Shown: positions 513-45,678, counted from the stretch's first letter. The stretch: DNA of 45,678 nucleotides from a virus (IMGVR_UViG_3300011013_000026:1-45678); one strand, 5' to 3'. A program made the numbers and translations. The notes: generated by a model from the sequence alone, not told the origin.

Positions 513-3500
513 ATGGTATTCACTACTGACACACTTGCTAGAGCTTCATTTAAAAAACTACAAGGATTAAGTCACTCTGAGGCATCCAAGGACCCAGCGA
601 ATGAGTCTGAGGCATCTCAGATAACTATTGCCGCTCAGGAGATATTCGGAGAAATATTGCCCACCGATCCTGACGTTGCAGTTGTAGATGGTTATGCTGC
701 GTTTGTCACACTGGGCTTGACTATTGATGCATCTTCTAATGGAAAATCATACCAAGCCTCTATTGCTACTGTTGCTGGGACTGGTCTTTCTGGAAAAACA
801 AATCCTCGAACTGGTACTGTGTATCAAGACGCAGACCGTGTTGGTTATCTAATACCGCCCCAGTTTGGCACGCAATATAGAGGTGTTGTTTATAATAATG
901 GTACCGAAGTACCTCCATTGTCCGCAGAAGATTGGTTCCTAGATTACCGCTCTGGCATAGTTACGTCTGAGAATGACCTAGGTCTTGTGAATGGCACATT
1001 GGACGGCTATGTGTATGTGGGAGATTTTGTCTCGGATAAATTAGTTGATTTATTGCTTTGGTCCTCTATTGGTAGCGATATAACAAATTCTAATGCCGGT
1101 GAAGTCCTAATTGCTAACGGAATTAGCGCTCCTTCAACAGGGGTGAATTCAGAAGCATATGGAGCGGGGGCAACCGCTGCAGACAATGCCGTTTCTATAG
1201 GCAGCAATTCAGTGGCTGCGGCAAATTCAATAGCTATTGGGCGTACTGTTATAGCAGGAGCTAATGAGTTTGTTGCTGGTGATAGCAATATGAACATAAC
1301 AGACGTTTATTTTGGAGAAGGCTCGCTAGATGCCACTCCGGCTGAATACACTATCCATGGCACTGGTGGAACAGGAATCGACATTGTTGGCGGTGATTTA
1401 AATCTTGCTGGCGGAAGAAGTACGGGCGCAGGCCTGGGAGGCAGTCTTGTGCTGCAAACGTCGCCTGCAAGTGTATCTGGTTCTGGTGTGAATTTATTAG
1501 TTGATCGAGTAACAGTGGGCACTACAGGGCTGTTAACGGCGTCATTCGGAATAAGCGCCCCCTCAAGTGGTACTTCTTCAGAGGCATATGGGTCTGGCGC
1601 AACTGCTACGATAAGTGACAGCATAGCACTAGGAAATGGGGCAGGCGCTACGGCCGCGAGAGCTTTAGCCGTAGGCAGAGGAGCTTCCGCCACTGGCGAT
1701 AATGCTACTGCTATCGGAGCATTCTCTTCTGCAGGTGTTAGCGGCATAGCAATTGGCCGAGCTGCTAACGCCGCAGCGAATTCAATTGCTATTGGCCAAT
1801 CTACTGCTAGCGCCAACGAATTTGTTGCAGGCAACGCTACTGTTCCCATCAATAATGTCTACTTTGGAGACGGCGTCACAGACGCTACGCCTACAGCTTA
1901 TACAATCAACGGCAGTGGAGGGCTAGGAACGGACATTACTGGTGGCAATATCACCGTAGCTGGCGGCAGAGGAACTGGTAGTGGCGCCGGAGGGAGCATT
2001 ATTTTTCAGACTGCAGATGGCGGCACCACAGGGGCTGCTTTAAATGCGTTAGCCACAGCTATGACGATATTAGACAATGGGAATGTTGGCATTGGAGAAA
2101 CCACGCCTGCTACCGATTTGCACCTGACAGGAACTACTGCGCGTAAAATTAGAATTGATCTTAACGATACATCGGTGGCAAATGACCAAGATTATGGCAT
2201 ATTAGAGTGGCATGGCAACAATGCCGTTTCGGGCGTGAAGGTATATTCTGAGATTAAAACAGCTGCTAATGCTTCACTGGGAACTATCGGCCAAACTGAC
2301 ATGGCATTCTCCATATCTACAACTTCTGGATTGACTGAGATTATGAGGTTGGAGTCAACAGGGCGTATAAATCTTAAGAATGTGGTCGGCACCACACTTC
2401 GTTTTGATCTGGATGATACAACAGTTTCGGATGGCCAAGCCTATGGTATCATTGAATGGTTTGGGAATGATGCCAGTACTAGCGCATCAGGTATTAGAGC
2501 GAGAATAAACGGCCTGGCAAGCCCCGTTGATGGTAGCTTAGGTGCCACCGACATATCGTTTGAAACAACTGCAGCTGGCTCTACGACATTGTCAGAGGTA
2601 ATGCGCCTAAGCAAAGATGGGTATGTGGGCATAGGAACTAGCGATCCAGCAGCTATGTTGCATTTGTCAAGTTTAGCAAGTACGTACGTTTCAACAATTA
2701 GACTTGAAGATACAGACACTACTACGGTTGCAGAGCAGGCACTAGGAAGGATTGAGTTTGCTACGCAGGATACTAGCAATGTGGGCGTTGCTGCCAAGAT
2801 AGAAGCAAGGGCAACTGGCACTGCCGCTAATTCTGAGATTAATTTTCATGCAGGAAGCGCTACTACGTTGCGGCATATTATGAAGGTAGGCGCTGAGAGC
2901 GTGGCGATTGCTCATAATAATACCTTGCCGGTGGTTAGCGCAAGCGTTCCCTTGACCATAGGTACTGACGCAGGAAATGGTTCGCGCGGATATATTGTTT
3001 TAAATAATAATACAATCCCAGCATTTGGTGAGCAGGGCGTGCTGAGCATGAAGCAGCATGATGGCGGGCAGCATTATTTATGGGTAGATAATTCTGGATC
3101 TCCAGGCGTATTAAGAATACATACGGCCTTGCCCGATTCATCTTCAGATATTGCGGGCACAGTTGTTGGTACGCAAACATTTACTGGGTTTCATTTCTAT
3201 CCCACAAATGCAGTAGTTGATAATGACAATGATGATGGTTATGACGGGTATCTTGCTATTGGAGATGCTGTCAGGTTGGTAGATGGCTATGTAGCCAGAA
3301 GTAGTGCAGCAGAGCAAGGGGACGTAATAGGCCTATTTACAGGAATGACCAGTAATTATAATAATTCACTAACAAATGAGTGCAATATTCCGGATACATA
3401 CTGGGAAGAAGAACTTGGTAGTGATGGCTATTATTACGGACCAGATGCGTCTAAAAATGGCATATTGTACTCTGCAGGGACCCCTCTTTCATTAGCGGGA

Positions 3501-3746
3501 GTCGCATCTTTAGGTGATGCCAGGGACTTTTCTATTACTAGTGGCTTAGATGGGTTCAGTGTGTGTGATGAGGGCGGTCCGATCGTATCAGGAGATCTAC
3601 TGTGCTCTAGTTCTATATATGGTTATTTGATGAAACAGTCTGATGATTTGTTACATTCTTACACAGCAGGCAAGGCACTTGAAAGTGTTTCGTTTGGTGT
3701 TTCAGGCAAGGCAGTAGGCGTATATGGCTACTTATATTGCGGTTAG
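513..3746 (+). CDS. Tail fibre with YadA-head-like repeats (1077 aa)
   Basis: Probable trimeric receptor-binding fibre on the outside of the tail. The ATG follows an AGAGGG ribosome-binding site. An N-terminal attachment region covers residues ~1-200. Residues ~204-500 carry repeats of the SIAIG / AxATG / AIGxxA type found in the left-handed beta-roll head of YadA-like adhesins, in two diverged copies of a larger block. Next come three ~80-100-residue beta modules (from ~547, 630 and 730), each with an IR(I/L/F)xxxD start and a G-I-(I/L)-E-(W/F) core, alternating with fibre-type VGIG...PA..LHL segments at ~525 and ~705. The C-terminal ~150 residues contain GDLL...GYLMKQ...GKALE and end in YLYCG, a pattern I associate with C-terminal fibre tips. 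Seven DGY tripeptides are present. The fibre assignment is firm; the receptor is unknown. Confidence 0.8.
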   Translation: MVFTTDTLARASFKKLQGLSHSEASKDPANESEASQITIAAQEIFGEILPTDPDVAVVDGYAAFVTLGLTIDASSNGKSYQASIATVAGTGLSGKTNPRTGTVYQDADRVGYLIPPQFGTQYRGVVYNNGTEVPPLSAEDWFLDYRSGIVTSENDLGLVNGTLDGYVYVGDFVSDKLVDLLLWSSIGSDITNSNAGEVLIANGISAPSTGVNSEAYGAGATAADNAVSIGSNSVAAANSIAIGRTVIAGANEFVAGDSNMNITDVYFGEGSLDATPAEYTIHGTGGTGIDIVGGDLNLAGGRSTGAGLGGSLVLQTSPASVSGSGVNLLVDRVTVGTTGLLTASFGISAPSSGTSSEAYGSGATATISDSIALGNGAGATAARALAVGRGASATGDNATAIGAFSSAGVSGIAIGRAANAAANSIAIGQSTASANEFVAGNATVPINNVYFGDGVTDATPTAYTINGSGGLGTDITGGNITVAGGRGTGSGAGGSIIFQTADGGTTGAALNALATAMTILDNGNVGIGETTPATDLHLTGTTARKIRIDLNDTSVANDQDYGILEWHGNNAVSGVKVYSEIKTAANASLGTIGQTDMAFSISTTSGLTEIMRLESTGRINLKNVVGTTLRFDLDDTTVSDGQAYGIIEWFGNDASTSASGIRARINGLASPVDGSLGATDISFETTAAGSTTLSEVMRLSKDGYVGIGTSDPAAMLHLSSLASTYVSTIRLEDTDTTTVAEQALGRIEFATQDTSNVGVAAKIEARATGTAANSEINFHAGSATTLRHIMKVGAESVAIAHNNTLPVVSASVPLTIGTDAGNGSRGYIVLNNNTIPAFGEQGVLSMKQHDGGQHYLWVDNSGSPGVLRIHTALPDSSSDIAGTVVGTQTFTGFHFYPTNAVVDNDNDDGYDGYLAIGDAVRLVDGYVARSSAAEQGDVIGLFTGMTSNYNNSLTNECNIPDTYWEEELGSDGYYYGPDASKNGILYSAGTPLSLAGVASLGDARDFSITSGLDGFSVCDEGGPIVSGDLLCSSSIYGYLMKQSDDLLHSYTAGKALESVSFGVSGKAVGVYGYLYCG
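1122..2010 (+). repeat. Tandem duplicated block of YadA-head-like repeats
   Basis: Two diverged copies, starting at ~1122 and ~1551, encode the same order of elements. Each has ISAPS...SEAYGxGAT, then AIGxxA-type head repeats, NSIAIG, ANEFVAG, a VYFG(E/D)G step with DATP, and a glycine-rich AGGR.TG.G.GGS end. The second copy holds extra head repeats between ~1605 and 1790. The DNA has diverged, so the duplication is old. It shows that the fibre shaft grew by in-frame duplication. Confidence 0.75.
2151..2900 (+). repeat. Three-copy beta module in the fibre gene
   Basis: Three related protein modules begin at about 2151, 2400 and 2700. Each starts with IR(I/L/F) and an acidic stretch (DLND, DLDD, LEDTD). 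Each continues with a YGI(L/I)EW(H/F)GN-like core (LGRIEF in the third copy) and ends near (E)IMRL, EVMRL or HIMKV. The spacing is ~83 and ~100 codons. Identity is visible only at protein level, so this is an old internal duplication. Confidence 0.65.
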
Positions 3747-3755
3747 GGGGCAGTT

Positions 3756-5073: not shown

Positions 5074-8000
5074 ATGACAAATTATCCATCTAATCTAGAT
5101 ACAGATGCTGAGCTGCCTTCAGTTAGTGATAACATTACTGAAATTGGTGGAGAGGCAATTAATGCTGTTAGGGGTGCTATATTTGCCTTGGAAAAGGCAA
5201 TAGGCATTGACCCTCAGGGCTCTGCTTTGTCTTTGAGCAATAGATTAGATGCGACTTTAAATCCAGATGGTACTTTTAAGGCCTCTGCTCTTACTGCGGC
5301 GGGGCTTATTGCCTTGCCCATTGTTGATTCACAGGTAGGAACTACGGCAGGTATATTAGAGTCAAAATTAAATCTAGATATTTCAACTGCCAGTCTGCAG
5401 ACACAGGTAACGTCTAATGATTTAGATATTGTTACCTTGCGTAATGCTTTGAATGCGTTATTAAATAATTTTACTTTGCACACAGTCGGTTCGTTTGGTC
5501 GCCACGATGGTTATCAAGTAGACATGCTAGCGACCTTGGCGGGTGCGGACGTTTCGGTAAGTACCGTTGAGGCTTCCTTAAATCTAATTTGGAACACATT
5601 TTTAGACCATAGGGCAGGAACAACTATAACGGAACATTTTGCTTCTGCAATAAGTTATACGCCTGATACAAACCAAGGAGTAGACCTGGTTGTAACTGCC
5701 GACAATGTGCAGGATGCTATTTCACAAATAGATGTTCAGTTTTTAGAAGATAGGCGTATACACAATGATTCTGCCCATAGCGATGGTGTGTCGTCTGACG
5801 GTTATTTTAATTTTGGAGGGCAGGCAAATGTAAATGACGCCTCAGGGCGTTTGACGCGCTACCAGACCCCGTCTCCCGACATAATGCAAATAGGCTTAAT
5901 AAATGCTTCTTCTATTAAGTCTAAAAACTTTGCAGCTACTAGCATATCCTTAACGGCTAGTGCTATTGATATTAGGGCTTATAATGGTACGAGCTCACGC
6001 TTGCTTAGTGTAGTGAATATAGATGCGGCTGACTTCCCCTCTGGCTCAGGGCGCCTTAGTTTGCGCGCGGTAGTAGATTATTTAAATCAGCAATTTGCTA
6101 CGAACGAATTCCCGGTATCGGCATATGAATCTCGTGATGGCGAATTAGTATTGCAGCACAATATCGCGCGTGATGACTGCTACATAAGCATTAGTGCCCC
6201 AGGTGCTAACTCTGCTGTGTTGGCGATGGGCCTTACTGCTGTGGCCGGGCAAGGCATACTGAGGGTAAATAATTTTAAATTAGTCATAAACGGCAATCAA
6301 TATTCTGAGTTAAAAACCATATCTAGTGGCTCTATAACACAGGCAGGAGCATCTACTATTATTGACCTAGGAGTGGATGTTACCGCTTCGGGATTGAATT
6401 TATTTGCCAATTCATTAATTCACATTTACAATCATAGTACTGGATCTGCAAATGGCACTTATAGAGTATCGATTATATCACCAGCATCCCCATCGCCCAC
6501 TACTAGTATTGCTTTGTCTGTACCCATGGCCGCTGGCACATTTGATTATATCATATATGGGGATTCGTTTAATACGAACTTTGCAGGCAATTTCAGGACT
6601 GTAGATTTTTACTTAGAAAGTGATAGAACTCCTGCTGTTTCGCAGAGAATGGATATCACTTCTGTACAAATAAGCGGACTTCGTGTTGTTGAAGTGTCCC
6701 AGGGGTGGCCGGCAGCCACCGGGGCCCTTGTAGTACTTACCAAGTCCGGTACTACATATTCTCTTTCTACTATAATTGGGACAGACAGCAGCATTGTTAC
6801 TACATTCGAAGAGGGCTTCCTGGGCTATGTTAAAGTATTTGCTCCAGACAACAAGGCCTTTGTCACCATGTTGGTATCAGATGCCGCCCCTCCCTCTCCT
6901 CGAACGGATACTGTTGATTTTACAGCTACTGAGTTTCAGGACGATAGATTATTGCTCGGTACTACTTTTTCTGATGCTAGCTCTATATTGGAAATACCAG
7001 TAGACGTTCGCAATGTTGGCCTAACAGGGGTCGACGCTCTAGGGTCAGAGGTGTCGGAAGGTATACTAGGTAGAGACCTGGCTAATTTGCATATGAGCGG
7101 AATTGTACGCGGTTTTGATGTCTTGCAAATAAACTCTGGCAATAATTCTGTTGAGATAAATGGCGGTTTCGCATATATTGATGGTATCGCCATATGCAAG
7201 GAGCGTCAGGACGTAGATATAACTATTTTTGCCACAACAACTGGTACTTGGAATTTATTCCTTACTAGAAACGGCAATTATGAAGTATTTGAGGAAGGCA
7301 CCGCTGGCAAGTCCATTTCTGATGCTTTATTGCAAGATAATTTCATACCTATTACTCAAATCACTATTACGGCTGGCCCGGCAGTGTCTACGACCACAGA
7401 TGCGAGGCTATTCATTAATGATGTAGAGTCTCGGCTCCAGCTCACGGTTGATGATAGAGACCTGGGCGCAGGCTCTTTCCGCTCCTTAGAGGCGGCGGTA
7501 CTTCATTCTAAAAGCGCTCCGAATGATACTAAGCCTGAGATCATAGTGTTGTCAAACCTAACTATTACTGGCGCTTTAACTATAGATGCAGATGCGCGTA
7601 TAATATGTTTTAATGATCTTACTCTAAATAGTACTCTTACTATATCTGCGGGCGCCACACTTGAGGTATTCGGCATCCTCACGGTGACGGGGACCACTAC
7701 CCTGAGTTCTAACTCAAAATTAGCATGTCATGGCACATCAGTATTTTCTTCTGGAATTACCCTTTCTTCTGGAACTGATTTGGAGCTAAAGTCAGATGCA
7801 TCGCTGGTGTCGATTACTATCGCAGGTAGCGATATTAATGTCGTTGGATTAGAAGATAAGCCGACAATTACGTTTGATGGCACAACTACCGGCATAATAA
7901 CTTCTGGCAGCGTTTCCTCGTTGTTTATACGAGATTTAGAGCTTAGAATGACCAATGCCTTATTCCCAATTATTGACTTTGCCTTCATAGCGTCTGATAT

Positions 8001-9711
8001 TCAAATTGCCAGGTGTGAACTCAAACAGGCAACTACTTTGCCGCTGGCCAATATTGTTCAAACTGCACGGGCCGGCCTTGTCTATAGTGCTGCTGTTTCT
8101 GACCTAACAATTAGAGATTGCTTGTTTTCAAATCTTGGAGTAGGCATATCTGGTTCAGATGTTCTTACAAATGCATATATTCATAACAATAGATTTTTTG
8201 AAAATGGATACGGCATTCGGCTTTTTGATGGCTATGGAGTCAGTGTTGATGACAACAGATTTGACGAGATGCACCTGTATGCTGTAGATATGAGCAATTT
8301 CAGTTTGTTCAATATCATGATAAATAGTAATGTGTTTTTGAATAAGTTTGATCCGACTTCTAATCCGATTTGTATAAGCGGCCAGGCGACGCCACAGGAC
8401 TTAATAATACATGGCAATATTTTTCATAATTTAGATACTACTTCCATAATCTTGTTAAGCGGTGAAGGAATTGTTATATCGGATAATGTAATACATGATT
8501 GCATTACATCATCTTTCGCCATAGACATGAGCAGCATCACTGGCTTGACGGTAATAAGCGATAATGTAATAAAAGACCATTCTGGACAGCTTTTAAAAGG
8601 ACCAGAACTGACTGTGGTGGGCAATCAAATGGAGACCACTAGCAGTACTGGTGGTAATACCATAGAAATAGGCGCTGCCGCATCAGGCACTATTGAGGCC
8701 TTATTTGTTAACAATAGGGTAAATATAGTTACTACCAATGAGGTAGTTACATTTTATGATTGCAATATATCAAATAATCAGATTCTTGCTGGCAGTGGAG
8801 TAATAAGCTCAACCAGGGCTTCGATAGTTGGCAACTACATGGTGTTTGATGATACCACAGTTACTAATTCTCTTACTTTGACGGCTGCTTCGTTTTCTGA
8901 TAACTATATACAGGGGAGCCCCACAGCTGCTGTTGTTTTGGCAGATAGCGCATCCGGGCATAATGTTTGTCAAAATGTGGTAGTTGGTAACGCCGGAACC
9001 ATACTTATAGATTATAATTCTGCCATCGGCGGTGTGATTAGCAATAATACATTGAACGCGCTTAATCATGTTTACGGTATATTTGTAGGCGGAAACAATG
9101 CAGTAGTAATTGGGAACAACATATCTGGAACTATAACTGGCGGCGGTGGCGGCGCTATTGTTGGAGAGACAAGTGCTACAGATATGCTAATTGCCAACAA
9201 TTTTTGCTCTACAGCTGGCGGAGATACAAGGGTAGTGTTTCATCAGTCATCTGCACCCACTGATGTTGTGATAAAAAGCAATAAAGGTGCGGAAGAAAGG
9301 CAGGCTTTTTCGGTATATAATGGCTTTCAAAGTACTGGAGACTGGAGTGTGCCGAATACTGCGACAGGAATAAGTTCTTCCACCCTTAATGCTCACATGT
9401 ATGTTGTTCTAGATGGGCTAACAGTTGGAACCTTATTAGAAAGTGTGACCGTGCATGTGAATAATGCCGGCGGCCTGGGAGATGCAGTTATTCAAGTTTA
9501 CAGACGAGATACTACGAGCCTTACCCCAACTGACGTCACTGATCCAATAGGAGAGTTTGATGTTCCATCTGGAGTGTTTAGTGCCTTGGTTGTTCCTGTG
9601 CGTACTGCAGAACAGCCCGTGCTTACAGGAAGTAGTTTCTTTGTAGAAATAAATATAAGAAATACGAATTTAGTTACTTTTGGCCAGGTAACTGCAAATA
9701 TTAGGTATTAA
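5074..9711 (+). CDS. Giant beta-helix tail fibre/spike, paralogue A (1545 aa)
   Basis: Starts 3 nt after the preceding stop with no clear ribosome-binding site, so it may be translationally coupled. The N-terminus (NYPS.LDTDAELP...ITEIGGEAI) and a helical region to ~130 look like a particle-attachment domain and match the next gene. Residues ~130-820 are beta domains. From ~820 to 1420 a long right-handed parallel beta-helix is evident, with many short turns of the I-x-x-N-x-(F/I) type and repeated SDN, GNN and NN ladders. The last ~120 residues (from about GDWSVP) form a separate beta-sandwich-like tip. Such fibres bind or degrade surface polysaccharide; I see no identifiable catalytic residues. 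Three DGY motifs are present. Confidence 0.75.
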   Translation: MTNYPSNLDTDAELPSVSDNITEIGGEAINAVRGAIFALEKAIGIDPQGSALSLSNRLDATLNPDGTFKASALTAAGLIALPIVDSQVGTTAGILESKLNLDISTASLQTQVTSNDLDIVTLRNALNALLNNFTLHTVGSFGRHDGYQVDMLATLAGADVSVSTVEASLNLIWNTFLDHRAGTTITEHFASAISYTPDTNQGVDLVVTADNVQDAISQIDVQFLEDRRIHNDSAHSDGVSSDGYFNFGGQANVNDASGRLTRYQTPSPDIMQIGLINASSIKSKNFAATSISLTASAIDIRAYNGTSSRLLSVVNIDAADFPSGSGRLSLRAVVDYLNQQFATNEFPVSAYESRDGELVLQHNIARDDCYISISAPGANSAVLAMGLTAVAGQGILRVNNFKLVINGNQYSELKTISSGSITQAGASTIIDLGVDVTASGLNLFANSLIHIYNHSTGSANGTYRVSIISPASPSPTTSIALSVPMAAGTFDYIIYGDSFNTNFAGNFRTVDFYLESDRTPAVSQRMDITSVQISGLRVVEVSQGWPAATGALVVLTKSGTTYSLSTIIGTDSSIVTTFEEGFLGYVKVFAPDNKAFVTMLVSDAAPPSPRTDTVDFTATEFQDDRLLLGTTFSDASSILEIPVDVRNVGLTGVDALGSEVSEGILGRDLANLHMSGIVRGFDVLQINSGNNSVEINGGFAYIDGIAICKERQDVDITIFATTTGTWNLFLTRNGNYEVFEEGTAGKSISDALLQDNFIPITQITITAGPAVSTTTDARLFINDVESRLQLTVDDRDLGAGSFRSLEAAVLHSKSAPNDTKPEIIVLSNLTITGALTIDADARIICFNDLTLNSTLTISAGATLEVFGILTVTGTTTLSSNSKLACHGTSVFSSGITLSSGTDLELKSDASLVSITIAGSDINVVGLEDKPTITFDGTTTGIITSGSVSSLFIRDLELRMTNALFPIIDFAFIASDIQIARCELKQATTLPLANIVQTARAGLVYSAAVSDLTIRDCLFSNLGVGISGSDVLTNAYIHNNRFFENGYGIRLFDGYGVSVDDNRFDEMHLYAVDMSNFSLFNIMINSNVFLNKFDPTSNPICISGQATPQDLIIHGNIFHNLDTTSIILLSGEGIVISDNVIHDCITSSFAIDMSSITGLTVISDNVIKDHSGQLLKGPELTVVGNQMETTSSTGGNTIEIGAAASGTIEALFVNNRVNIVTTNEVVTFYDCNISNNQILAGSGVISSTRASIVGNYMVFDDTTVTNSLTLTAASFSDNYIQGSPTAAVVLADSASGHNVCQNVVVGNAGTILIDYNSAIGGVISNNTLNALNHVYGIFVGGNNAVVIGNNISGTITGGGGGAIVGETSATDMLIANNFCSTAGGDTRVVFHQSSAPTDVVIKSNKGAEERQAFSVYNGFQSTGDWSVPNTATGISSSTLNAHMYVVLDGLTVGTLLESVTVHVNNAGGLGDAVIQVYRRDTTSLTPTDVTDPIGEFDVPSGVFSALVVPVRTAEQPVLTGSSFFVEINIRNTNLVTFGQVTANIRY

Positions 9712-9712: not shown

Positions 9713-12700
9713 ATGTCAAATTATCCATCACAATTAGATACTGATGCACAGCTGCCTCGCGTTGCTGACAATGTTACTGAAATAGGCGGAGAAGCTATTG
9801 ACGCGCTTCGTGAGGCCGTTTTTGCAGTCCAGGCAGCCCTGGGCGCGAGCCCCCAAGGTGCTACCGCAGACTTGGTCACACGGCTTTCTCAGTCACTTAA
9901 CGATGACGGCACCTTAAAGGCGTCGGCACTTATAGCGGCCGGCCTAATTGCGCTCCCCATTGTGAATTCGCAAGTTGGTGCGACTGCCGCTATTTTAGAG
10001 TCAAAATTAGACCTAGATATAGCTACACAGGTTTTGCAGGACCAAATATCATCAAATGATATAGATATTACTGCCCTGCAAGATGCAATTGCAGATTTGC
10101 TAAACAGATTTGCTCAACATATTGCTGGAACTGCTTTCAGGCATGATACCTCTATGATCGACTTAGCCACTGCTTTGACTGGTATAGTTGCGGCAGATTT
10201 AGACACGGCCTTAGTGGCAATGAATGTAAGGTTTATTAATCATGCGGCAACTACTGCGGTAGGTGCTCATGGGGCTAGCAATATATCGGTTGTCAATAAC
10301 TTCCAAACAATCAGCGCCACTGATGCTCAGACAGCTTTTGAAGAGCTTGATCAAATAAGGGCAATAGAATTTATTCGCCATAGAGATGACATGCATTCAA
10401 ATGGCTTTAATTTCTGGGCCAATTCTACAGATGGCTATAATGTATATCAGCAAATATATCCTACTACTTCAGGAACAACCACCGGCATTATTCTGGGCGG
10501 GCGTAGAAATGTATTTGAGTTTGCAGGTGTAGCTTTGGCTGGGCTTGGCATTTCTCAAGGTGATGTACTAGTTATAACTTCTGGCACATCAGCAGGCAAT
10601 TATATCATTGACGATGTTGGTCCCCGGGCAATAGTAGGCGTCAAGCCGGCGTTAGATATAGACCAGCTAGAAACTACGCGTATTTTCTTTGACGGATATG
10701 ATGGAATAGATGGCTATGTAGAGGCCTCTGTTTTTGCTCAAAGCAGCACTGCTTTGCTAAAGGGGAACGCTGCCCCAACTATTCATCAATCTGATATAAG
10801 AGTAGATAGTATACAGTTTTCTCGTCCAAATGCCGCACGCGCAGTATCTCTTGGATTAAGTCCCTCCCTTATTATCGGCACAGAAACACTTGTAATAGAG
10901 GCAGGCGTAGACACGGGCGCAGTTCGTACTATTACTATAAATAATTTAAATCTAGATAGAAACGGAGTAATACAGCCTGTTCCAACTGTAGATTCAGTAG
11001 TCGGGAGAATAAATAGTGTTTTTCAAAATCGTACAGACGGTTACGCTTTTCCGGTAGCAGCTTATAGAGTGGGCGATGAACTCATGCTGGCTCACAACTG
11101 GCAAGAGCATGTGGACTACACTTTGAGGGTTTTATCCACAGGCACTGCTAACTTCACGCTTGGTCTTGATGGGTATGGCGCTGCGATAGAGGATGCATTT
11201 CTCACTCCTACTCTAAGTGGTAATTTTGTAGTTAATGGATTTAGATATAGTAATTTTGCTACTATTCTTAATGGAACAGCTACCATACCAGGCCCATCTT
11301 CTACTACACTTATAATGGATGGAACCGTAAACCCGCTTGCACTAGGAGTAAAAGAAGGGCACTTAGTACAGCTTAAGAGTCATCCAACAGATAATTCTGT
11401 CTTAGGTACATATTATATAATAAATGTATCTACAACAAGTATCGTTGTGCATACAGTTGGCACCCTGGCTGCCGGCTCTGGCATAGAAATAGAAATACTT
11501 CATGATGCTTTACCATTAGAAGATTTTAATACTAATACAAGAGACCAAATCATTGAGGGCTTTGTAGACGCTAATGCCAGAGTTGGCTATAACGAGCGGT
11601 TGAGTTATACAGATAGCATCAGCAATATGAGTATTATTGATGTTAGTGATAATTTTTTGGCCGCTACATATGACCTAACAGTTGCCATTTCTGGAGGAGG
11701 CGTAAGCCTTACCCTCGGAACCCTGGGTAGTCCGGTAATAGTGCCTACTACATTTTCTGGGCAGGTACAAGTATATTCTCCTGCGAATATTGAATTTATT
11801 GTAGTTGACATTACTAGCCCTATAGGGACTGGCACTACCGATGTGGCGGTCAATGACCATATAAATGAAGAAGAAGTGCTTGAGCTTTGTAGCACCAAGA
11901 TAGATGGATTGCTAACAATTTCTAATATTTCAGATAAGCGCCTTTATGGGAGTGTAGGCATAGAGCAGGTCAGGGAGGATTACACTCAGGCGTTTATTGA
12001 GACTCCCATGGCGGAACTGCGTTCTAATGGAATTGCTCGTGGATTCGGAATTATATCTACCGGCTTAGTTGATCCTGCATTATATCCTTCAAATGAAGGC
12101 ATTTCTGTTTTAGGCGGAACAACTTATGTTGCTGGAGTGCGGTGTGATATTGAGTCACGTACGGTAATTTTCCCATCAAGTGCTGATGGCAATTACACTG
12201 TGGCACTTAATGATATAGGATCTTATCAAATAATACCTGAGTCTGACTATAGCGTTGCGGAATTGCTTGATGGCTATAATGGAGAGCTAGCATTAGTTTA
12301 TAAAGTAGAAATGAGCAGCGGTTCGGTGGTCAGCGCTGAGGATTTGCGTTTTTTCATCAATGACTTAGATGACAAATTCGAACTGGTAGTAGACTTTACC
12401 AATCATATGATTGGCAACTTCGCTTCATTTGAGGCAGCGGTTAATTATGCAAATAATTATCCATCTGCAGAAAAATTCACCATACGAGTCGTGTCAAGGA
12501 CTTTAGTAAATGATATTGTAATACCGGCTGGAAGCAGGGATATTACAGTCGAGCTAGATGGATCCGTAAGAAATATCACAGTAGGTTCTGATTGTAAGAT
12601 ACGTTCTAACAGTATTGCTAATAGAGGCTTTTCTCACCTTATTGGTACATTTACCGTGGGAGCGGGATGCACCTCCTTAGAGGTTGAGAACTTAAATATT

Positions 12701-17640: not shown

Positions 17641-17642
17641 TT

Positions 17643-17647: not shown

Positions 17648-17652
17648 CTCCC

Positions 17653-36448: not shown

Positions 36449-39400
36449 ATGGTTACTTTCCGTAGTTTAGAAAATATTTCGCTGTCGATGCTTGATTTTA
36501 TTCGAGTTTTGCAGCCAAATTTAGATATAAAGCCAGGCAGTGTAGCGCGGGACACTACCATCGATTTGCCAGCACAGGAGCTATCAAGGCTATATGTCGA
36601 GCTCCGTAATATTGCTAATTTGCAAGCAATATCTACTGCTTCTGGTACAGATTTAGACAAACTAGCCAGGAACTTTGGATTGATACGTGGAACGGGCTCT
36701 AGAGCTACGGGTGTGGCGGTATTCACTACTAATAATTTAGATTCGGATATTAACATACCTGCAAATACAGTATTGACATCCCGCAGTGGTTTTAGTTTTG
36801 CTACTCAGGTCGCTACTAGTTTTGTGGCCAGCAATTCTGGAGTTTACAGGGCTAATGGCATACGTTTGCGTGCTGACTTGGATTTAGCAGGAATTACGGA
36901 TGAATTTGCTTTAGAGATTGCAGTAGAGGCCATCAATGCTGGCTCTGCTGGCAATGTCGGTAAATTCGGCATTATAGGCCAGGGGGTTGCTGGCTTATCT
37001 AATGTGACAAATATCGATAGTTTTTCTGGCGGGTCTTCTACAGAAGCAGATGCTGCTTTTCGTTCAAGAGTTCTTGGTATTTTTGCAGGTAGCAATACCG
37101 GAACTGCGCTTGGCTACATTAATGCCTTGCTGGTTGACCCCAGGGTTCAGGACGTACTAACCGTAGAGCCAGGCGATACTCTTATGACTCGTGACGGCAC
37201 TGTTACTGCTACAAATGATGACGGAGATTCAGTCATTATATCTACCGGCACGGGCGGAAAAGTAGACCTTTATATCCAGGGCAACAGCCTGCAGTCCTTC
37301 ACGGAGTCTTTTATTTATAGAGACCAGAGTGGAAAAAACGACCCTACTGATGTTTCAAATGAGTATGTAATTGGGCAAAGAGGGTTGTCTACTTTACTTG
37401 ATTTTCAGCAAAGAAGAAGGTTGTCATTGCAAGGTGGAAACCTTCCTTTTCAACCAGTAGATACCCTGGTTTCAGTTAGCGGCAGCCTGTCCGGTCCTAA
37501 TTTTGTACAGAAGTTCACAGACGATGCGGGAAATGCCCAGGGTACGTTTGAATTGTCGAAAGACACTGATGCTTTCGGAGGGAGTGTATTTGGTTTTGAC
37601 AAGTTAAAGTTTATTTCTGGAACTATTGATTTATCAGATGAAGGGATTACCAAAGGCGTCTTTAATGGGCAAGACCCGGTAGGATTTACTGATGTATCAG
37701 AAATATCCAAAATAAAACAACTTATTGTTATTAATAATGAAGTGCCAACGGTGTCTGCATCAGATCGTTCCTTGGTATCTGTGGATCACACTCCAATTAG
37801 CTCTGTAGAGAGGGTTGTAAACCTTACTACTGGTGAGCGTTATGTTATTTCCGACTCTAACCCAGATGGCACCGCTGGAGAAGATAATATTACTGGAAAT
37901 ATTAAGATATCAGGAAATACCCTACCTACTAGGACAGACACTTTGCAGGTTAACTATGTATGGGATGTCAATTATGATGAAAATACCGATTATGATAATT
38001 TACAAACTGTTAATGAGTTTCGCACGGTACAAGACTCTGTCGACTGGGGATTCGCCAACAGGGTAGTTGCAGAGCAGCAAAGTGTTTTACACTCGGCCAC
38101 TGATGGATACCATGTAGTGGTGGAACACCCTGCTTCAAGGGTCATAAATGTAAATACCCGGCTCAGCGAGTCTTCTGTAAATAGTAGTGGCAAACTGGTA
38201 GTAACGACCAATATATTGAATATTTTCTCCGTGCTGGACTCTACTGAGCAAGAAGTGTTTTTCACTGCAGCCAATAATGGATCTTTTTCTAGTAAAGAAA
38301 TTACATTGCCTACTGATACGGTGCTTCCTAATGCAGCAACAGCCACAGTAGTATATAATTTGTCAGATTTATTTTCTCCTGATGGGTATCAAAATGGAAC
38401 TTTCTCGGGCAATATAATAAGGCTTCCTGATGGCGTAGCAACGGTAGGGCAAATAGTGTATGCCGATTACGTTGCCAATGTTAATACATTACTCCCCACT
38501 ACGGCAATTAGTTCTTTGCCAGCTACTGGTTCCCAAAACCAATTCGTAGTAGGCACCTCTACTTTGGGCAATCAACCCGTTTCAAACCTGTATGATGTAC
38601 AAAGCAATATTACTGATAATCTCAAATTTGCACCCAGTTATCTTAATATCAATTTTGAGGGAATTCCTGCGAGAGGTACGCTGACTATTAATGGTACTTC
38701 TTATAGAAAAATAGAAGACATTATCGTTGTTACCCAAGACGGCCTAACTGTAGATATGGCCACTAGCATCCGTAGTACGCTGGGATTGTCTAGCATTCCC
38801 AGCACTGCCTTTGTTTCCTCTGTAGCGAAAGTAGAAAGGGTAACGCTGTCCGGAGACGAAGTTTCTAGCGTAGATTACACATTTGATTTATTAAATTACA
38901 ACATTACTAACACCACCTATGACGCGGGACGTGCTATTGCCAATTCATCGCTGACCACCACACAATTCAGCATGGCTAGCACTGCCGCAAATCTTTCCAA
39001 TAATCCTACTACCGGTCAGAGATTAAGAGTTACCTACTATTACTCTAATACCAATGAAATTGAGAATCTGTCCGTAACTAGCGCAGGGCCCCGCATTTCG
39101 GAGTATAAGTATTTGTTTGTTAAGACTCTGAGTGCAGCCTCTGGGTTTATAGGGCTGTCTGGAAATGTATCGGGTACGATCACTGTGTCTAACCTTACTC
39201 AGCCAGTATCAGGCAGTTCATATTTGTCTACATACAAGTACGTCGCTCCCAAGGAAGGAGAGCGCATTACTTTGGAGTATAATGTCAACAGACTTATTGC
39301 CGATGCTACTAATGATATAGAGTCGGTACGACCTATAACGGCGGACGTCCTGGTAAAAGCAGCTGTGCAATTGGCAGTTGATGTTACTTTGCGAATTGTT

Positions 39401-39667
39401 GCTGCTACTACATTTAGAGGTACTGATTCTAATTTAGAATCAAGCGCAAGGGAGGCATTAACGGTCTTTTTGACGAATAATGGATTAGAGTCTACGCTCG
39501 ATTCTTCTGACGTTATTAACGCTACTTATGCTGTGCAAGGCGTTGACCGAGTAACAGTAACAACATTTAATCTCTCTGGGCAAACAGGGGTTAAACAGAC
39601 GATTCAGGCTGGCAGAAATGAATTTATTTCTGCGGGCAATATAGAGATAATTATAGAGGCACGCTAA
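36449..39667 (+). CDS. Baseplate J/gp6-like wedge protein, enlarged (1072 aa)
   Basis: Wedge protein that forms the iris ring of the baseplate. Residues ~10-75 carry the family pattern PGSVARD...LPAQELSRLYVELR....ISTASGTDLDKLARNFGL.R. Residues ~85-270 continue as baseplate-J core, with IPANTVLTSRSG, a (V)EAINAGSAGNVG turn, SGGSSTEADAAFRSRV and the GTALGYINALLVDPRVQDV helix. Residues ~270-960 are beta-rich additional domains, and the C-terminus (from ~960) returns to the core with DVLVKAAVQLAVDVTLRI and a SSDVINATYAVQGVDRV segment. The length is well above P2 gpJ and T4 gp6. Two DGY motifs occur in the insert. The last codon overlaps the next ATG (TAATG). Confidence 0.8.
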   Translation: MVTFRSLENISLSMLDFIRVLQPNLDIKPGSVARDTTIDLPAQELSRLYVELRNIANLQAISTASGTDLDKLARNFGLIRGTGSRATGVAVFTTNNLDSDINIPANTVLTSRSGFSFATQVATSFVASNSGVYRANGIRLRADLDLAGITDEFALEIAVEAINAGSAGNVGKFGIIGQGVAGLSNVTNIDSFSGGSSTEADAAFRSRVLGIFAGSNTGTALGYINALLVDPRVQDVLTVEPGDTLMTRDGTVTATNDDGDSVIISTGTGGKVDLYIQGNSLQSFTESFIYRDQSGKNDPTDVSNEYVIGQRGLSTLLDFQQRRRLSLQGGNLPFQPVDTLVSVSGSLSGPNFVQKFTDDAGNAQGTFELSKDTDAFGGSVFGFDKLKFISGTIDLSDEGITKGVFNGQDPVGFTDVSEISKIKQLIVINNEVPTVSASDRSLVSVDHTPISSVERVVNLTTGERYVISDSNPDGTAGEDNITGNIKISGNTLPTRTDTLQVNYVWDVNYDENTDYDNLQTVNEFRTVQDSVDWGFANRVVAEQQSVLHSATDGYHVVVEHPASRVINVNTRLSESSVNSSGKLVVTTNILNIFSVLDSTEQEVFFTAANNGSFSSKEITLPTDTVLPNAATATVVYNLSDLFSPDGYQNGTFSGNIIRLPDGVATVGQIVYADYVANVNTLLPTTAISSLPATGSQNQFVVGTSTLGNQPVSNLYDVQSNITDNLKFAPSYLNINFEGIPARGTLTINGTSYRKIEDIIVVTQDGLTVDMATSIRSTLGLSSIPSTAFVSSVAKVERVTLSGDEVSSVDYTFDLLNYNITNTTYDAGRAIANSSLTTTQFSMASTAANLSNNPTTGQRLRVTYYYSNTNEIENLSVTSAGPRISEYKYLFVKTLSAASGFIGLSGNVSGTITVSNLTQPVSGSSYLSTYKYVAPKEGERITLEYNVNRLIADATNDIESVRPITADVLVKAAVQLAVDVTLRIVAATTFRGTDSNLESSAREALTVFLTNNGLESTLDSSDVINATYAVQGVDRVTVTTFNLSGQTGVKQTIQAGRNEFISAGNIEIIIEAR

Positions 39668-42600
39668 TGGTTTTTCGGATAATCCGATTCCTAAATAGAT
39701 CTACCACTCAGCTCCAAATCGAGTTTTCAGAAGACTTGGATGAGAATATTGGTATATCGAACATTCAAGTGGTTTCCGAATTGGCCAATGTGCCTGACCT
39801 TGTTGTTAGGTCGTCTTCAATTCAGGCCAGAATACTTACGGTAAACACGAATCAGCAAAGGCCCTTTGCTTTATATAGAGCAAAATTCATATCTACCACC
39901 GCTCAGTCATTCTCTAGCGTAAGTGGAAACAGGCTACATGAGGAGAGCTCTGATGCCGCCGCTAGCTTTGTAGGCCTCGAAGATGCCAATCAAATCAGAG
40001 ATGATATGATAGACAATGCATCTCCGGTATATGATTTAGAGACGGACACTTTCGTACGTAAGCATGTTCAGAACCTTTCTAGGCAGTTCTTGAAGGCACG
40101 CACGGATGTTCGTGAAACAGGCAATGCTAATTATATATCTATTGAGGTAGAAGATGAGCGCAGGGTGCGAGGTTTTAGCCCTACAGACAGGCTAGCAAAT
40201 GAAGGCGCCTTCATAGTAACTAGAGTTGGCAAAACCCAGACAGGCGCCTCCTTGTTGCGTCAAATAATGTTTGAGGCGGCCCGTGGAGTGACGTTGCTTG
40301 GAAGTAATGCGGGGTTAGTCAATGACCAAATACTCTCTTTCCCTGCAGACCCAGTATCTCTGCGCACTGAAAGCGTAGTAAAAGAAATTGTTTCTAATGT
40401 TGAAACTTTGCAAAATAAGTTTGAAAGCCTAACGGTAACTCTTTCCCACTCTAATATATCTCAAATACATTCGATTGTTTTGCGCCAGGCTGGCGGAGCA
40501 GTGTTTAATTATGATGTGCCGCTTTATGGGTACTCGTTGCTTAATAATCGATACGATACTGTAAATGCAGGGCGTCTGCTCACATTGGCCTCTAATCAGT
40601 TTAAAATATCAGACACTCCCGTGCTGGGCAGTGTGTTTCCAGAGCCACAAGGGACCGACACTTTGGAGATATCATATTCTTATATTGATAATGGCATCAA
40701 TGTTTCTTCATCTAGCGTTGTCGTCTCTGAGGTCAAAACAAGCACCCGGGAAAGCATCGGTGGATTTTTAACTACTTTTTTTCTTGCTAATTTTCCTGTA
40801 GTTACCGCTACGGATGGAGCTCCAATTTCGGGAGGCGTACAATTTTTAGATCCTGCTCCCAGCACAGGAGTTCCCTTTGTGGCTACTCATCCGGCCTTTA
40901 CCAATGAGATAGCTTTTTCAGAGACACGATTACCAACCCAAGCAGGGCAGTACTCTGTAAACTATCCTGCTGGCCAGGTATTCGTATTTGGTGAGTCTAT
41001 AGCTGACGGCACTGGCTCAGGCCCTCCCGTAGCTACTTATTTTTATCGAAAAACATATGTGTCTGGCATTGACTATGTTTTTGAACCAGATGCTGATGAA
41101 ATAGCAGCGGTATCAACTCGGGATTTGATTGGGCAGGAAGTCAAGGTGTCCTTTTCGTACGAACAGGTTCTGTCTGAAGGTGAAGATTATCTAGCACACG
41201 TTCATAATGAAGTAATAAATGAGCGGGTAGACAATAGGCTAGTAAGCACATTTAGGGTCGCTGCCTCTAATACTCCAATTACCAATGTAGTTCAAGTATT
41301 TAATGAAACAACTGGCGAAATATATTCTATTTCTCGCTTTGATGAAAATTACATTACTTTTTCAGGGCGCAACGCTCCTAGGGTTTTGACGCAGGCGAAC
41401 GAACTAGCGTCTTTCGAAAGAGTGTTTAATGAGCAGCTGTTTGTATCAGAAACGATATCAGACTCTGGCACTGTTAAAGTGGTCAAGATACAATTACAGA
41501 ATAATTTAATAACGTCTAATACTGGAGATCAGTTGGGCGCTAATTTTAATACTAGCGTGTCACTCAGTAGCACTGCGTTCTCTGCTGAGCTGTTTTATGA
41601 CGGCGTGCTACAAACCGTAACTGTAAACTTGGCCAAATTATCTTTGAATGGTGACTATTTAATAGATTATGATAATGGAGTTATTTATCTACAAGTAGCC
41701 AGCACAGTAGATACTTATGGAGACATTAACTATTCACATGGCAGTATTGATACTGCATTCTCTAATATCTTAGCGCCAGAGACCCTTAATTATAGAGCCA
41801 CAAATAATTCAGCAGTTGTTTTGGATGTAGAGATGCCATCATTCACTTCTGAGTTAATATCTACTAGTGGCTTGCGTTTGGGCGGCGAAAGATTTTTAAA
41901 CAATAATAGCAATAAGCCGCTATACTATGGCTCTAAAGGTTCTGGGTCTGCGGGGCAAAGAAGTCCTGGATCTACTATATTTGTAGCCCTGGATGCTATT
42001 TTTACTGCAGACATGGTGGACGGCAATCACATTATTCGCTTTCCAGACGATGCAGATCGTACTATCACGGCGTTTAGGTCGATGACTGAGGTCGAGGTCG
42101 ATCTGGCCTTTACTGATAATGCAAAGAGCCTTGATTGGTGCGTGATTGACTTTGACCTTACGGATGGCGATGGCTATAATGTAGCTGTAACTTACGACAT
42201 ACAAAGCGTACGTGCAGTTTATGCGGTTTCAGAGTTGCAGACATTGCCTGCGGACTCGCTGACTAATTTTTGGGACCCAGAATTAGATACTTTTTCTGGA
42301 AACGTTATTACGTTTAATAATTCCGCAGTCAGTGCTCTAACGCCTGGCGATTCCCTATCGGTTGATTATAATTTAGGCAATTTGTATGTAGATTACCAGT
42401 ATGTTGCGGACAACTTGATCATTACATACGAGTATGGCGATAATTCTATTGATCATAGTATCAGTGATACATTAGCACGCGGAGATGAGTATTTCGTTAG
42501 TTATCGGTATGGTGCCTTGCGGGAAGGACTTCAGACTAACTTTGGTGCGCTTACACAAATACAAGAGTTGCAGGACTTCCCTTTTGACTTTGACAGAGAG

Positions 42601-45600
42601 CTATACAGGGACACTACGGCTGGCGCCATTCAGGCTTTTTTAAAGGGCCCCACTGCAGATGCCATTAGAACTGCAGTCAGCAGTGTAACAAATGTAGATC
42701 CTGATATTACTGAGTTGACTTTCAACGAATGGACTCTGGACAGAGACAATCTTCACCTACAAGAAGGCATTTATACCGGCACTCCTACCTATGATGACGG
42801 CAAGTTCGGATTCGGACTAGTAGTAGACAATACCGACACCTTTGTTTTTCCTTCTGAGTCTTATATATCTTTAAGAGAGGGTACTTTTGAGGGCTGGGTG
42901 CGTCCGCTATGGAGAGGTCTCGACAATGACGCTTCTCTTACCTTTGACATAGGACAGGATGGCTATACAGCGGTTAGTGGCGGCGGATTGCAAGATGGCT
43001 ACGTATTAAGCCTTAGTGACATATATATAGGCGCCATGGGTTGGAATCCTACCAGCTCTCCGTTTACCATTAATCGTTCAGATGCAGATCCAGAGAGCCC
43101 TTTGGGCCGGCCAGCTACCTTTGGAACTCTGTCCGGTTACTACATATGGTATGATTCTGATCAAAATGAATGGTTTTTACGTGCCGTGTCAGCTCCTTCA
43201 GATAGTATTAATTTTGTTGGGCGAATAACAACTACGGGCGAAATGTATAATGTGCGAGATGGGTACAACTACACATCGAGCCTTGACATAAATGATGTAA
43301 CAGAAACTATAAGATCTACTAGCTCTTATATAGAATATAATTTCTCAGTCGATGGTTATGATTCCGCAGGAGCTGACGGATATGTTGATACTGATGGCTA
43401 TTTGTACCAGGATGGTATAAATTGGTTATCAGATGATTTGCATTATGTTTTTGACACAGGCATTTCAGCGTCATATAACAGGATGTCCCTGTTTAAGGAT
43501 GGTTCTGGCTATCTTAACTTCAGAGTATATGATGATACCGGCCAGAACATACAGGGTGGGTCACGGTTCTATAATATTTCAAATAACATATCCTCTTGGT
43601 TGGCTGGCGGATTACATCATGTAGCGGCTTCATGGCGTCTGAATTCTTCTGAAGGAATTGACGAAATGCACCTTTTCGTAGACGGCCAAGAGGTTGCTAA
43701 CCTGTATAAGTATGGTGGGCGCCCCATAGCAGGAACCAGTGATGTATTTAGAACTGTAGCAGACGAAGTGGTTATCGCTTCCGCTCCTAAAAACATATTA
43801 ATAGCTGCAGATGGCTCATCGAGCTCTGGCAGCACGTCGTTTATATCACTGTCTTCCAGCTTTATTACAGACGGAATAGTTCCTGGCGACGTATTTGCTA
43901 TTTTGGATGCAACCGCAGATGCTATGATTTCCAGAACGGTAGCCTCTGTGTCTACCAGCACCACTCTTGTGTTAAGCGCACCCTTTACTCTTACTCTTGA
44001 CAATATAAATTTCAGTGTTAATCAAACAAGCGTATTAACAGAGACTCCCTTGTTTGCTGAGAAAATAGCGGTATTCAAAACTGACATTGATGGTTATAGG
44101 ACCGAGCTTAGTGGTATAGCTGCAGAATCACCTGAGTATAGTATTGAGCGCTCGGGGCACGATACTACCATTAATATAAATGGAAATGTAGAAGTTGGCG
44201 ACGAAGTAGTCATAAACACTCTTGGACTGACCCGAGGGAGATGCAGGGATGTCGTATATAAGTACGACATAAGCAATCAATTAAAAACAAATTTAGAGCC
44301 ACCTGTGGACTTGGCAGATGTTGATATATTTAAGGTTTTGTGCAAGCGCATCCCTATCCAGGCTAATGCGCTGCACAACCCAGGCGATGGCTATGGAGAC
44401 GGTTATTGGTTAGCGGACGGCTATGAGCTTGATGGTACCTTTACTAATTTGTGCCAGCCTTCAAATGCAGTTCGAGGCAAGGTGCTGCGCGTTACACTAG
44501 GCGGTACATCTAATATAGATTTTAGTGGGATAAACGAGGTAACGTTCAATGGTACTACATTTGGCGGACCAATAACTGAGACTCTTACTTTTACTAACTA
44601 CGGAGTGAAAGTAACTACTGAATTCTGGACGTCTATCACTAGTGTTGGTGCGACATTCACAGGCGTAGATCCCAGTACGTTCTTCGGCTCCTTTGAAATA
44701 ATAGAAGATGTGTCCTTGACGCGAGAGGAAAATAGCGGTGATTATGCTCAGGTAGGCTTTTACGAGAATGGGCAGTTATCCCTATATATATTTGGCTCAG
44801 GAGGCCTGAAATTCCTACTTGATTCTTGTTATTATTTGCTTGATTACCATACTAGGCTGAATATTTCGTATTCGCTAAAGGGAGATCTGTATATCGGTAG
44901 CAGCATAGAGGGCACAGGGCAGTTTGATGGCGCCCTGGATGATATTTTGTTTTTAAATGAGATGCTCTCAGACGTCCGTACGGGGGAAGTCCCAGATTCT
45001 AGCGTGCGCACAATTACTGAAGACTTCAATAGTGTCAGAGCGGCCGTTGTGACGCCTCAGACCCTTATGTTGCTGGACTTAGATGAAAACATAAATAACT
45101 TAAATACATTTTACAAAACATACGACGAGCAGTTCTTTACTTCTTCTATGGGCATAAATAGCACATTTGGAGATTCTGGCATATTTCTGAATGACCCGTT
45201 CATTATTGATAATGGACCGGTGGTGCTTGATAATGACCAGGGTACTATCGAGTTTTGGATAAGCCCTATAGTGGATATAATTAACGATATGAATCATACG
45301 CGTTATTATGTTGATATTGCAGCAGCTGCTTTAGAGAGCGCACAATCATTGACTGCCACAACGGTGCAGCTTGGCCAGCGGGCCAAGAGCATTAAGAGTG
45401 TGCGCTTGGTAACTGATACTGACGGGAGCGGCACAGACTTCTTTGAGGGTGGCGTACTGGGTCGTGATGGACGCACCATTACTCTAGGTCAGCCATTGCC
45501 CGCACAAAGAACAAATGTAAGCGTACAATACGTTTCTGTTAACTCTATGGGAGATCGCCTGTCTATTTACAAAGATGGGTACGGTAGTATTAACTTTGAA

Positions 45601-45678
45601 ATACTGGCAGAAGAGCAGGTTTATAAGATTAGTTATCCCATAGCATGGTCAAGAAATACGTGGCACAGGGTCATGGCT
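39667..45678 (+). CDS. Giant LamG-containing tail/baseplate protein, 3' truncated (at least 2004 aa)
   Basis: The frame is open from ATG 39667 to the last base, 2004 codons with no stop, so the end is missing. The N-terminus is an Ig/fibronectin-like beta region (VFRIIRFLNRSTTQLQIEF), followed by a helical part to ~250. Long beta domains with the pattern VSYSY.. and DYVF/DYLIDYDNGVIYL run to ~1060. Residues ~1073-1350 form a LamG/concanavalin-like jelly roll (TFEGWVRPLW, then HHVAASWRLNS and LHLFVDGQEVANLY, the family's usual landmarks). A second starts at ~1859 (GTIEFWISP) and continues to RNTWHRVMA at the edge. Twelve DGY motifs cluster here. By position it follows the gpJ-like gene and probably carries host-binding domains at the baseplate edge. 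Confidence 0.75.
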   Translation, partial: MVFRIIRFLNRSTTQLQIEFSEDLDENIGISNIQVVSELANVPDLVVRSSSIQARILTVNTNQQRPFALYRAKFISTTAQSFSSVSGNRLHEESSDAAASFVGLEDANQIRDDMIDNASPVYDLETDTFVRKHVQNLSRQFLKARTDVRETGNANYISIEVEDERRVRGFSPTDRLANEGAFIVTRVGKTQTGASLLRQIMFEAARGVTLLGSNAGLVNDQILSFPADPVSLRTESVVKEIVSNVETLQNKFESLTVTLSHSNISQIHSIVLRQAGGAVFNYDVPLYGYSLLNNRYDTVNAGRLLTLASNQFKISDTPVLGSVFPEPQGTDTLEISYSYIDNGINVSSSSVVVSEVKTSTRESIGGFLTTFFLANFPVVTATDGAPISGGVQFLDPAPSTGVPFVATHPAFTNEIAFSETRLPTQAGQYSVNYPAGQVFVFGESIADGTGSGPPVATYFYRKTYVSGIDYVFEPDADEIAAVSTRDLIGQEVKVSFSYEQVLSEGEDYLAHVHNEVINERVDNRLVSTFRVAASNTPITNVVQVFNETTGEIYSISRFDENYITFSGRNAPRVLTQANELASFERVFNEQLFVSETISDSGTVKVVKIQLQNNLITSNTGDQLGANFNTSVSLSSTAFSAELFYDGVLQTVTVNLAKLSLNGDYLIDYDNGVIYLQVASTVDTYGDINYSHGSIDTAFSNILAPETLNYRATNNSAVVLDVEMPSFTSELISTSGLRLGGERFLNNNSNKPLYYGSKGSGSAGQRSPGSTIFVALDAIFTADMVDGNHIIRFPDDADRTITAFRSMTEVEVDLAFTDNAKSLDWCVIDFDLTDGDGYNVAVTYDIQSVRAVYAVSELQTLPADSLTNFWDPELDTFSGNVITFNNSAVSALTPGDSLSVDYNLGNLYVDYQYVADNLIITYEYGDNSIDHSISDTLARGDEYFVSYRYGALREGLQTNFGALTQIQELQDFPFDFDRELYRDTTAGAIQAFLKGPTADAIRTAVSSVTNVDPDITELTFNEWTLDRDNLHLQEGIYTGTPTYDDGKFGFGLVVDNTDTFVFPSESYISLREGTFEGWVRPLWRGLDNDASLTFDIGQDGYTAVSGGGLQDGYVLSLSDIYIGAMGWNPTSSPFTINRSDADPESPLGRPATFGTLSGYYIWYDSDQNEWFLRAVSAPSDSINFVGRITTTGEMYNVRDGYNYTSSLDINDVTETIRSTSSYIEYNFSVDGYDSAGADGYVDTDGYLYQDGINWLSDDLHYVFDTGISASYNRMSLFKDGSGYLNFRVYDDTGQNIQGGSRFYNISNNISSWLAGGLHHVAASWRLNSSEGIDEMHLFVDGQEVANLYKYGGRPIAGTSDVFRTVADEVVIASAPKNILIAADGSSSSGSTSFISLSSSFITDGIVPGDVFAILDATADAMISRTVASVSTSTTLVLSAPFTLTLDNINFSVNQTSVLTETPLFAEKIAVFKTDIDGYRTELSGIAAESPEYSIERSGHDTTININGNVEVGDEVVINTLGLTRGRCRDVVYKYDISNQLKTNLEPPVDLADVDIFKVLCKRIPIQANALHNPGDGYGDGYWLADGYELDGTFTNLCQPSNAVRGKVLRVTLGGTSNIDFSGINEVTFNGTTFGGPITETLTFTNYGVKVTTEFWTSITSVGATFTGVDPSTFFGSFEIIEDVSLTREENSGDYAQVGFYENGQLSLYIFGSGGLKFLLDSCYYLLDYHTRLNISYSLKGDLYIGSSIEGTGQFDGALDDILFLNEMLSDVRTGEVPDSSVRTITEDFNSVRAAVVTPQTLMLLDLDENINNLNTFYKTYDEQFFTSSMGINSTFGDSGIFLNDPFIIDNGPVVLDNDQGTIEFWISPIVDIINDMNHTRYYVDIAAAALESAQSLTATTVQLGQRAKSIKSVRLVTDTDGSGTDFFEGGVLGRDGRTITLGQPLPAQRTNVSVQYVSVNSMGDRLSIYKDGYGSINFEILAEEQVYKISYPIAWSRNTWHRVMA

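Follow-up and report, generated by a model that had tools for sequence, protein, structure and literature searches.

The exact tripeptide Asp-Gly-Tyr (DGY) is strongly over-represented in tail proteins, probably external ones, encoded by a virus known from a 45.7-kb IMG/VR fragment (45,678 nucleotides, here called the window), and the same excess is found in uncultured jumbo phages of a diverse clade that have this tail module. We propose that DGY is a strict sequon, displayed mainly in loops on the tail exterior, to which a phage-encoded enzyme would add a sugar, most likely at the tyrosine hydroxyl; judging from sequence, we regard this proposal as evenly balanced between right and wrong.

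Recounting the window returned exactly 36 DGY tripeptides, divided among the proteins just as in a preliminary description of this DNA, and all of them on the plus strand. Seven lie in a 1077-aa tail fibre with YadA-head-like and GNVGIGT-type repeats (513..3746), at 687..695, 1002..1010, 2616..2624, 3234..3242, 3243..3251, 3282..3290 and 3423..3431. A 1545-aa beta-helix tail protein (Pfam Beta_helix; 5074..9711) has three, at 5506..5514, 5797..5805 and 8227..8235, and its 2174-aa beta-helix paralogue (9713..16237) has eight, at 10430..10438, 10691..10699, 10709..10717, 11036..11044, 11168..11176, 12269..12277, 12701..12709 and 14873..14881. One site is present in a 262-aa protein (16706..17494), at 17072..17080, three in the 865-aa tail sheath (17641..20238), at residues 186, 428 and 489 (18196..18204, 18922..18930 and 19105..19113), and two in a gpJ-like baseplate protein (36449..39667), at 38102..38110 and 38381..38389. 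The LamG-type protein (39667..45678; 2004 aa within the window) contains 12, at 42169..42177, 42958..42966, 42994..43002, 43258..43266, 43351..43359, 43375..43383, 43393..43401, 44089..44097, 44386..44394, 44398..44406, 44416..44424 and 45574..45582, a number that is a lower bound because the ORF runs off the right end of the window. The motif is absent from the window's hub, spike, tube, chaperones, tape measure and gp25-like protein, as had been reported, and from its remaining proteins; from their families and positions, the DGY-bearing tail proteins would be those on the outside of the particle.

Composition predicts 2.2–2.3 DGY over the whole window (the preliminary description put the seven DGY-bearing proteins at about two), and the excess holds when the sequences are shuffled: 3000 within-protein shuffles gave a mean of 2.24 and a maximum of 10, and 300 dipeptide-preserving shuffles a mean of 6.3 and a maximum of 13, against the 36 observed. 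DGY is the top-ranked tripeptide of the window (Poisson p ~1e-30), ahead of the others by about 24 orders of magnitude (the runner-up is QPV, at ~3e-6). It is encoded by 13 codon combinations, the synonymous codons inside it are those used elsewhere in the window (p = 0.56 for D, 0.14 for G and 0.54 for Y), and of 37 GAYGGNTAY words in the coding strand all but one are in-frame DGY, the opposite strand holding a single such word. Since the words are in frame and codon use is ordinary, the signal is selected at the protein level, which bears out what the variety of codons had suggested at the outset, and explanations based on a DNA word or on codons were rejected on these grounds. No point in support of a DNA-level word or composition artefact emerged from the analysis of the window, the excess is also absent from neighbouring genes, and the probability that we assign to such an artefact is negligible.

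Single-sequence scans for relatives returned one with the sheath and none with the tube, while a sheath profile scan returned 61 loci; DGY is the top tripeptide of the window's nearest relatives among them (L007, L011, L012, L050 and L053), and is not the top tripeptide in the sheath region of a sister group or of phage-G-like outgroups. A sheath relative with 47% identity, G001, has 9 DGY against 2.0 expected, some at window positions (38381..38389 in the gpJ-like protein, 42958..42966 and 43351..43359 in LamG) and others elsewhere. DNA scans for three clustered DGY words added more jumbo-phage contigs; these scans favour clusters and pick up low-complexity GYG/GDG repeats as well, and were therefore used for finding contigs and not for estimating frequencies. 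According to family models, nearly all cases with several DGY-rich proteins belong to the same clade, for which the search for relatives found no cultured member. Its gene order is beta-helix protein(s), 262-aa protein, sheath, tube, hub, gpJ-like protein, LamG and finally a dockerin-repeat protein of ~990 aa, whose gene would lie just past the window's right end. The clade contains 502 distinct DGY sites in 108 proteins. Counted by family, the observed/expected numbers are 64/5.2 for LamG, 72/2.0 for the ~990-aa protein, 88/4.7 for the beta-helix proteins, 35/2.1 for the sheath, 13/0.7 for the 262-aa protein and 10/1.8 for gpJ, against 0 DGY in the hubs, where 2.5 are expected, and 0 in the clade's glycosyltransferases. 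In the sister group a clear excess is limited to LamG (26/3.9) and the ~990-aa protein (15/1.7). The tail block of a 316-kb contig, G009, has 41 DGY against 3.2 expected, and the remainder 22 against 11. A 383-kb contig from a Chitinophagales bin (G044:C75), retrieved by sheath similarity alone, shows the order LamG (8 DGY), ~990-aa protein (5 DGY), GT4-type glycosyltransferase and GT2, with DGY as top tripeptide (24/3.1). The host proteome was considered as a source of the motif and rejected: 165 kb of the Chitinophagales MAG with this contig hold 12 DGY against 5.8 expected, and DGY is not the top tripeptide there.

The motif requires its exact residues. In the 108 DGY-rich proteins, DGY occurs 505 times against 25 expected, and its near variants are at background (observed/expected: DGF 30/31, NGY 15/27, EGY 11/15, DAY 25/18, DSY 28/28), with no enrichment of DGW (6/5). 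Proline follows DGY once against 19 expected and asparagine precedes it 8 times against 37; the flanks are otherwise loose. Turnover is high: when six families were aligned, 332 DGY sites were spread over 119 alignment columns, 63 of which held the motif in a single sequence, and a lost DGY tyrosine is replaced by Phe in 8% of cases, compared with 28% for other tyrosines in the same alignments, the commonest replacements being Ser, Thr, Asn and Val. Sites thus appear and disappear without following the fold, some of them in indels and others by substitution, as from RDAYG to RDGYG in the sheath. The 262-aa protein holds the only site conserved throughout the DGY-rich group (DGYG; the DGY-poor sister group reads DYG, DAYG or DEFG), and the three sites of the window sheath all lie in a variable inserted region, none of them in the conserved sheath core. 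Structure models, of low to moderate confidence, place most sites in neither helix nor strand: in the AlphaFold model of the sheath (mean pLDDT 69), which matches phage sheaths in the PDB, loops hold two of the three sites (18196..18204 and 19105..19113) and the third (18922..18930) is predicted within a long strand segment, while in a poor model of the ~990-aa protein (mean pLDDT 55) nearly all 13 DGY are outside helices and strands.

These data bear on two structural readings of the motif. DG turns are common in beta-rich fibre folds, and DGY could be a preferred beta-turn with an aromatic residue opening the next strand; at one sheath site, indeed, the RDGYG of the DGY-rich group corresponds to an Ig-like turn, RDAYG, in DGY-poor relatives. 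Against this, neither DGF nor DGW is in excess, and the tyrosine of DGY does not give way to Phe as normal tyrosines do; moreover, the sister group's beta-helix proteins contain 1 DGY against 3.2 expected, and homologues do not conserve the site together with its aromatic residue, as they would if DGY were a structural residue of known folds. The replacement rates led us to reject a structural turn or aromatic as the main cause, and we consider this reading improbable. The preliminary description had also pointed to acidic flanks resembling calcium loops. A few window sites do look acidic, and some sites of the ~990-aa proteins (e.g., ADVDGDGYIT) belong to real dockerin repeats (Pfam PF00404), but the great majority of DGY sites, unlike the DxDxDG loops of dockerins and EF-hands, have no acidic pattern: within five residues of the 502 clade sites acids make up 12.1%, against a background of 11.0%. 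Calcium loops were therefore rejected as a general explanation, and a calcium-binding mark is very improbable. Because a lost tyrosine gives way to loop residues and rarely to Phe, proline is excluded after the motif and the flanks are not enriched in acids, DGY is not a fold residue and, as a rule, not a calcium site either. Among the roles suggested at the beginning, then, metal sites do not stand in general, and accumulated loop insertions would leave unexplained the strict D-G-Y and the background levels of DGF, NGY and DAY; the suggestion of a modification or recognition mark is the one that gained support, from the strict tripeptide, the exclusion of proline, the turnover, the loop-like replacements and a linked glycosyltransferase gene.

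This gene, of GT4 type, comes shortly after the DGY-rich LamG and ~990-aa genes in each of the 23 clade contigs that extend sufficiently beyond them, usually within 1 kb of the ~990-aa gene and up to 4 kb from it; it is present in 23 of the 27 contigs with a ~990-aa gene, and the other four end there, one with a partial GT4. The linkage is seen in relatives, as the window ends inside LamG. Within 20 kb downstream, GT4 is the most widely shared family (12 of 14 contigs with any downstream gene, the other two having a single ORF before the contig end) and the only one shared by all of the 12 contigs in which two or more genes or ORF fragments follow the ~990-aa gene. Membership of the family is indicated by matches to Pfam PF13439 (2e-9) and PHROG 2170 (8.5e-30) and by an invariant EX7E pair (E256 and E264 in A5 numbering). 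In several members GT4 is followed by GT2, a GT2-like protein (p280), a ~330-aa protein (p330), a further GT2 and a GT2-GT6 fusion; for p280 and p330, comparison with the PDB gave no match identifying an activity. Contig G010 carries, 13–17 kb further on, a GDP-mannose 4,6-dehydratase gene (gmd, scoring above the curated cut-off) and GDP-fucose synthase-like, dTDP-glucose dehydratase-like and GalE-like genes.

The sister group shares the GT4 family, yet its DGY excess is clear only in the LamG and ~990-aa proteins; its GT4 gives a weak match to TIGR02918 (GtfA; E 1.4e-4, far below the family cut-off). GtfA, a bacterial protein glycosyltransferase likewise of the GT4 family, modifies Ser/Thr of serine-rich adhesins. 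Bacillus phage G (Donellivirus; G035), whose sheath, tube, 262-aa-like, hub and gpJ proteins are distant relatives of those in the window's tail module, lacks GT4, the ~990-aa protein and a DGY excess in the tail region, including the sheath. GT4 and the ~990-aa gene are missing also from the outgroups G033, G036 and G037, in whose sheath region DGY is not in excess. The idea that any GT4 implies DGY was discarded, as Streptomyces phages Gilson and NootNoot and Microcystis phage Mel-JY01 have distant GT4s with no DGY excess in the 50 kb analysed for each, so that only this clade's GT4 subfamily is implicated. All the glycosyltransferase-bearing cases belong to one clade, and shared ancestry alone could therefore yield the association of GT4 with DGY. 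Phage glycosyltransferases can, alternatively, modify host envelopes or DNA.

A tag of this kind, with a glycosyltransferase gene next to it in every readable relative, is a probable attachment site for a phage-made sugar. Taken together, the strict tripeptide, the lack of exchange between Tyr and Phe, the avoidance of a following proline, the loops, the turnover, the restriction to the exterior and the linked glycosyltransferase point to an enzyme acceptor motif, which may be read most simply as virion glycosylation on tyrosine; the requirement for Tyr over Phe is the sole reason for taking this residue as the putative acceptor. GT4 would be the candidate initiating enzyme, the GT2, GT2-like and GT6 enzymes frequently encoded after it could extend the glycan, and the phage nucleotide-sugar genes may help to supply the sugar, the outcome being a tail surface bearing many short glycans. 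If the window phage has such enzyme genes, as we infer from its relatives, they would be located beyond the window's right end.

DGY might instead be a peptide for non-covalent docking of a phage protein (a decoration, LamG or dockerin protein) or of a host surface molecule; strictness, loops, clustering and turnover would look alike in that case, and the dockerin-type repeats of the ~990-aa protein suggest protein–protein docking within the same module. However, three exact positions, the intolerance of Phe, Asn and Glu and the near-exclusion of proline at +1 are more typical of an enzyme sequon, and docking leaves the linked glycosyltransferase operon unexplained; we judge it unlikely, though the strongest of the competing readings. 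Ranked below docking, and unlikely as well, is a different modification of Tyr or Asp (sulfation, phosphorylation, nucleotidylation or cross-linking), carried out by some enzyme that this analysis did not recognise. That DGF stays at background, which indicates that the tyrosine hydroxyl is needed, would fit it, as would the DGY excess of an unrelated contig, G016, in whose 41-kb fragment no GT2 or GT4 was found; against it, a glycosyltransferase is the only downstream family common to the contigs examined.

Glycosylation at DGY would join features that are known separately, virion glycans and tyrosine-linked glycans; the literature search turned up neither a report that combines them with a DGY sequon nor a paper naming a “DGY motif”. 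In mycobacteriophages, glycans form a surface coat on structural proteins (Freeman et al. 2023, cited in PMC12619734 and PMC10568470), and the C-termini of the capsid and tail-tube subunits are reported to carry them (PMC12619734); the glycan coat proposed here from sequence would be similar but carried, unlike those, by an exact tripeptide dispersed over fibres, sheath, baseplate and LamG. Likewise, in bacterial S-layers, according to a review, in the consulted passages of which the DGY tripeptide was not found, O-glycosylation occurs on a few specific tyrosines per protein, with transfer at or near secretion (PMC2943079); the predicted acceptor is again a Tyr hydroxyl on a repetitive surface protein, whereas transfer would here be cytoplasmic. 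Four core glycosyltransferase groups have been described in “moraphages”, which are Bacteroidota jumbo phages (PMC12619734).

Few phage systems are known to glycosylate their virions, and the literature searched yielded no tripeptide sequon for this modification. If the proposal is correct, DGY counts would predict glycosylated virion proteins from sequence, DGY would provide a short tag that can be encoded genetically and comes with its own enzyme, and the role of a sugar-coated tail (host mimicry, protection or receptor binding) would become a testable question. Even with a different chemistry, a strictly selected tail tripeptide in a widespread clade of uncultured jumbo phages poses a clear problem of molecular recognition.

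More broadly, the clade might possess a self-contained, cytoplasmic tyrosine O-glycosylation in which the number of exact DGY sequons would tune the sugar coat, with the sequon of G016 being independent; we hold this wider view tentatively, as somewhat short of an even chance. G016 is a myovirus contig whose sheath, terminase and portal families differ from those of the clade; its sheath retrieved no relatives and its portal one distant match. Across ten structural or neighbouring proteins it has 21 DGY against 1.6 expected, which supports a general role of the tripeptide.

Among the 502 distinct DGY (Asp-Gly-Tyr) sites of the clade, leucine is favoured immediately N-terminal to the tripeptide (81 observed against 39 expected) and asparagine is avoided in the same position (8 observed against 37 expected). 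In the phage contig G003, the 1273-aa fibre (L186:1845-5664) contains 16 DGY and is built with repeated segments, each closed by LDGY (IQTILKELDGYS, IQTILSSLDGYG); its gene is adjoined by that of an M16-family peptidase of the insulinase type (L186:121-1326). An excess of DGY is also found in the sheath, the baseplate J protein and other virion proteins of an unrelated myovirus (G016, IMGVR_UViG_3300049217_000051, loci L284/L285). Its genes further include a pair that are TnpB/Cas12f1-like and one that is VapE-like.

In G001, the phage with the related sheath, ORFs resembling homing endonucleases by eye (L002:5740-6549 and 11752-12672) are inserted between the sheath and tube genes and ahead of the hub gene, and the window has no such ORFs at these two places. 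In the G010 phage, L208:425-12092 holds the nucleotide-sugar genes gmd, GDP-fucose synthase-like, dTDP-glucose dehydratase-like and GalE-like, adjoined by FtsZ-like and XPB-like helicase genes.

A hint of the host comes from the 383 kb jumbo-phage contig G044:C75 (L286, JAIXLO010000160.1): since it was binned into a Chitinophagales MAG, this phage may infect Bacteroidota.
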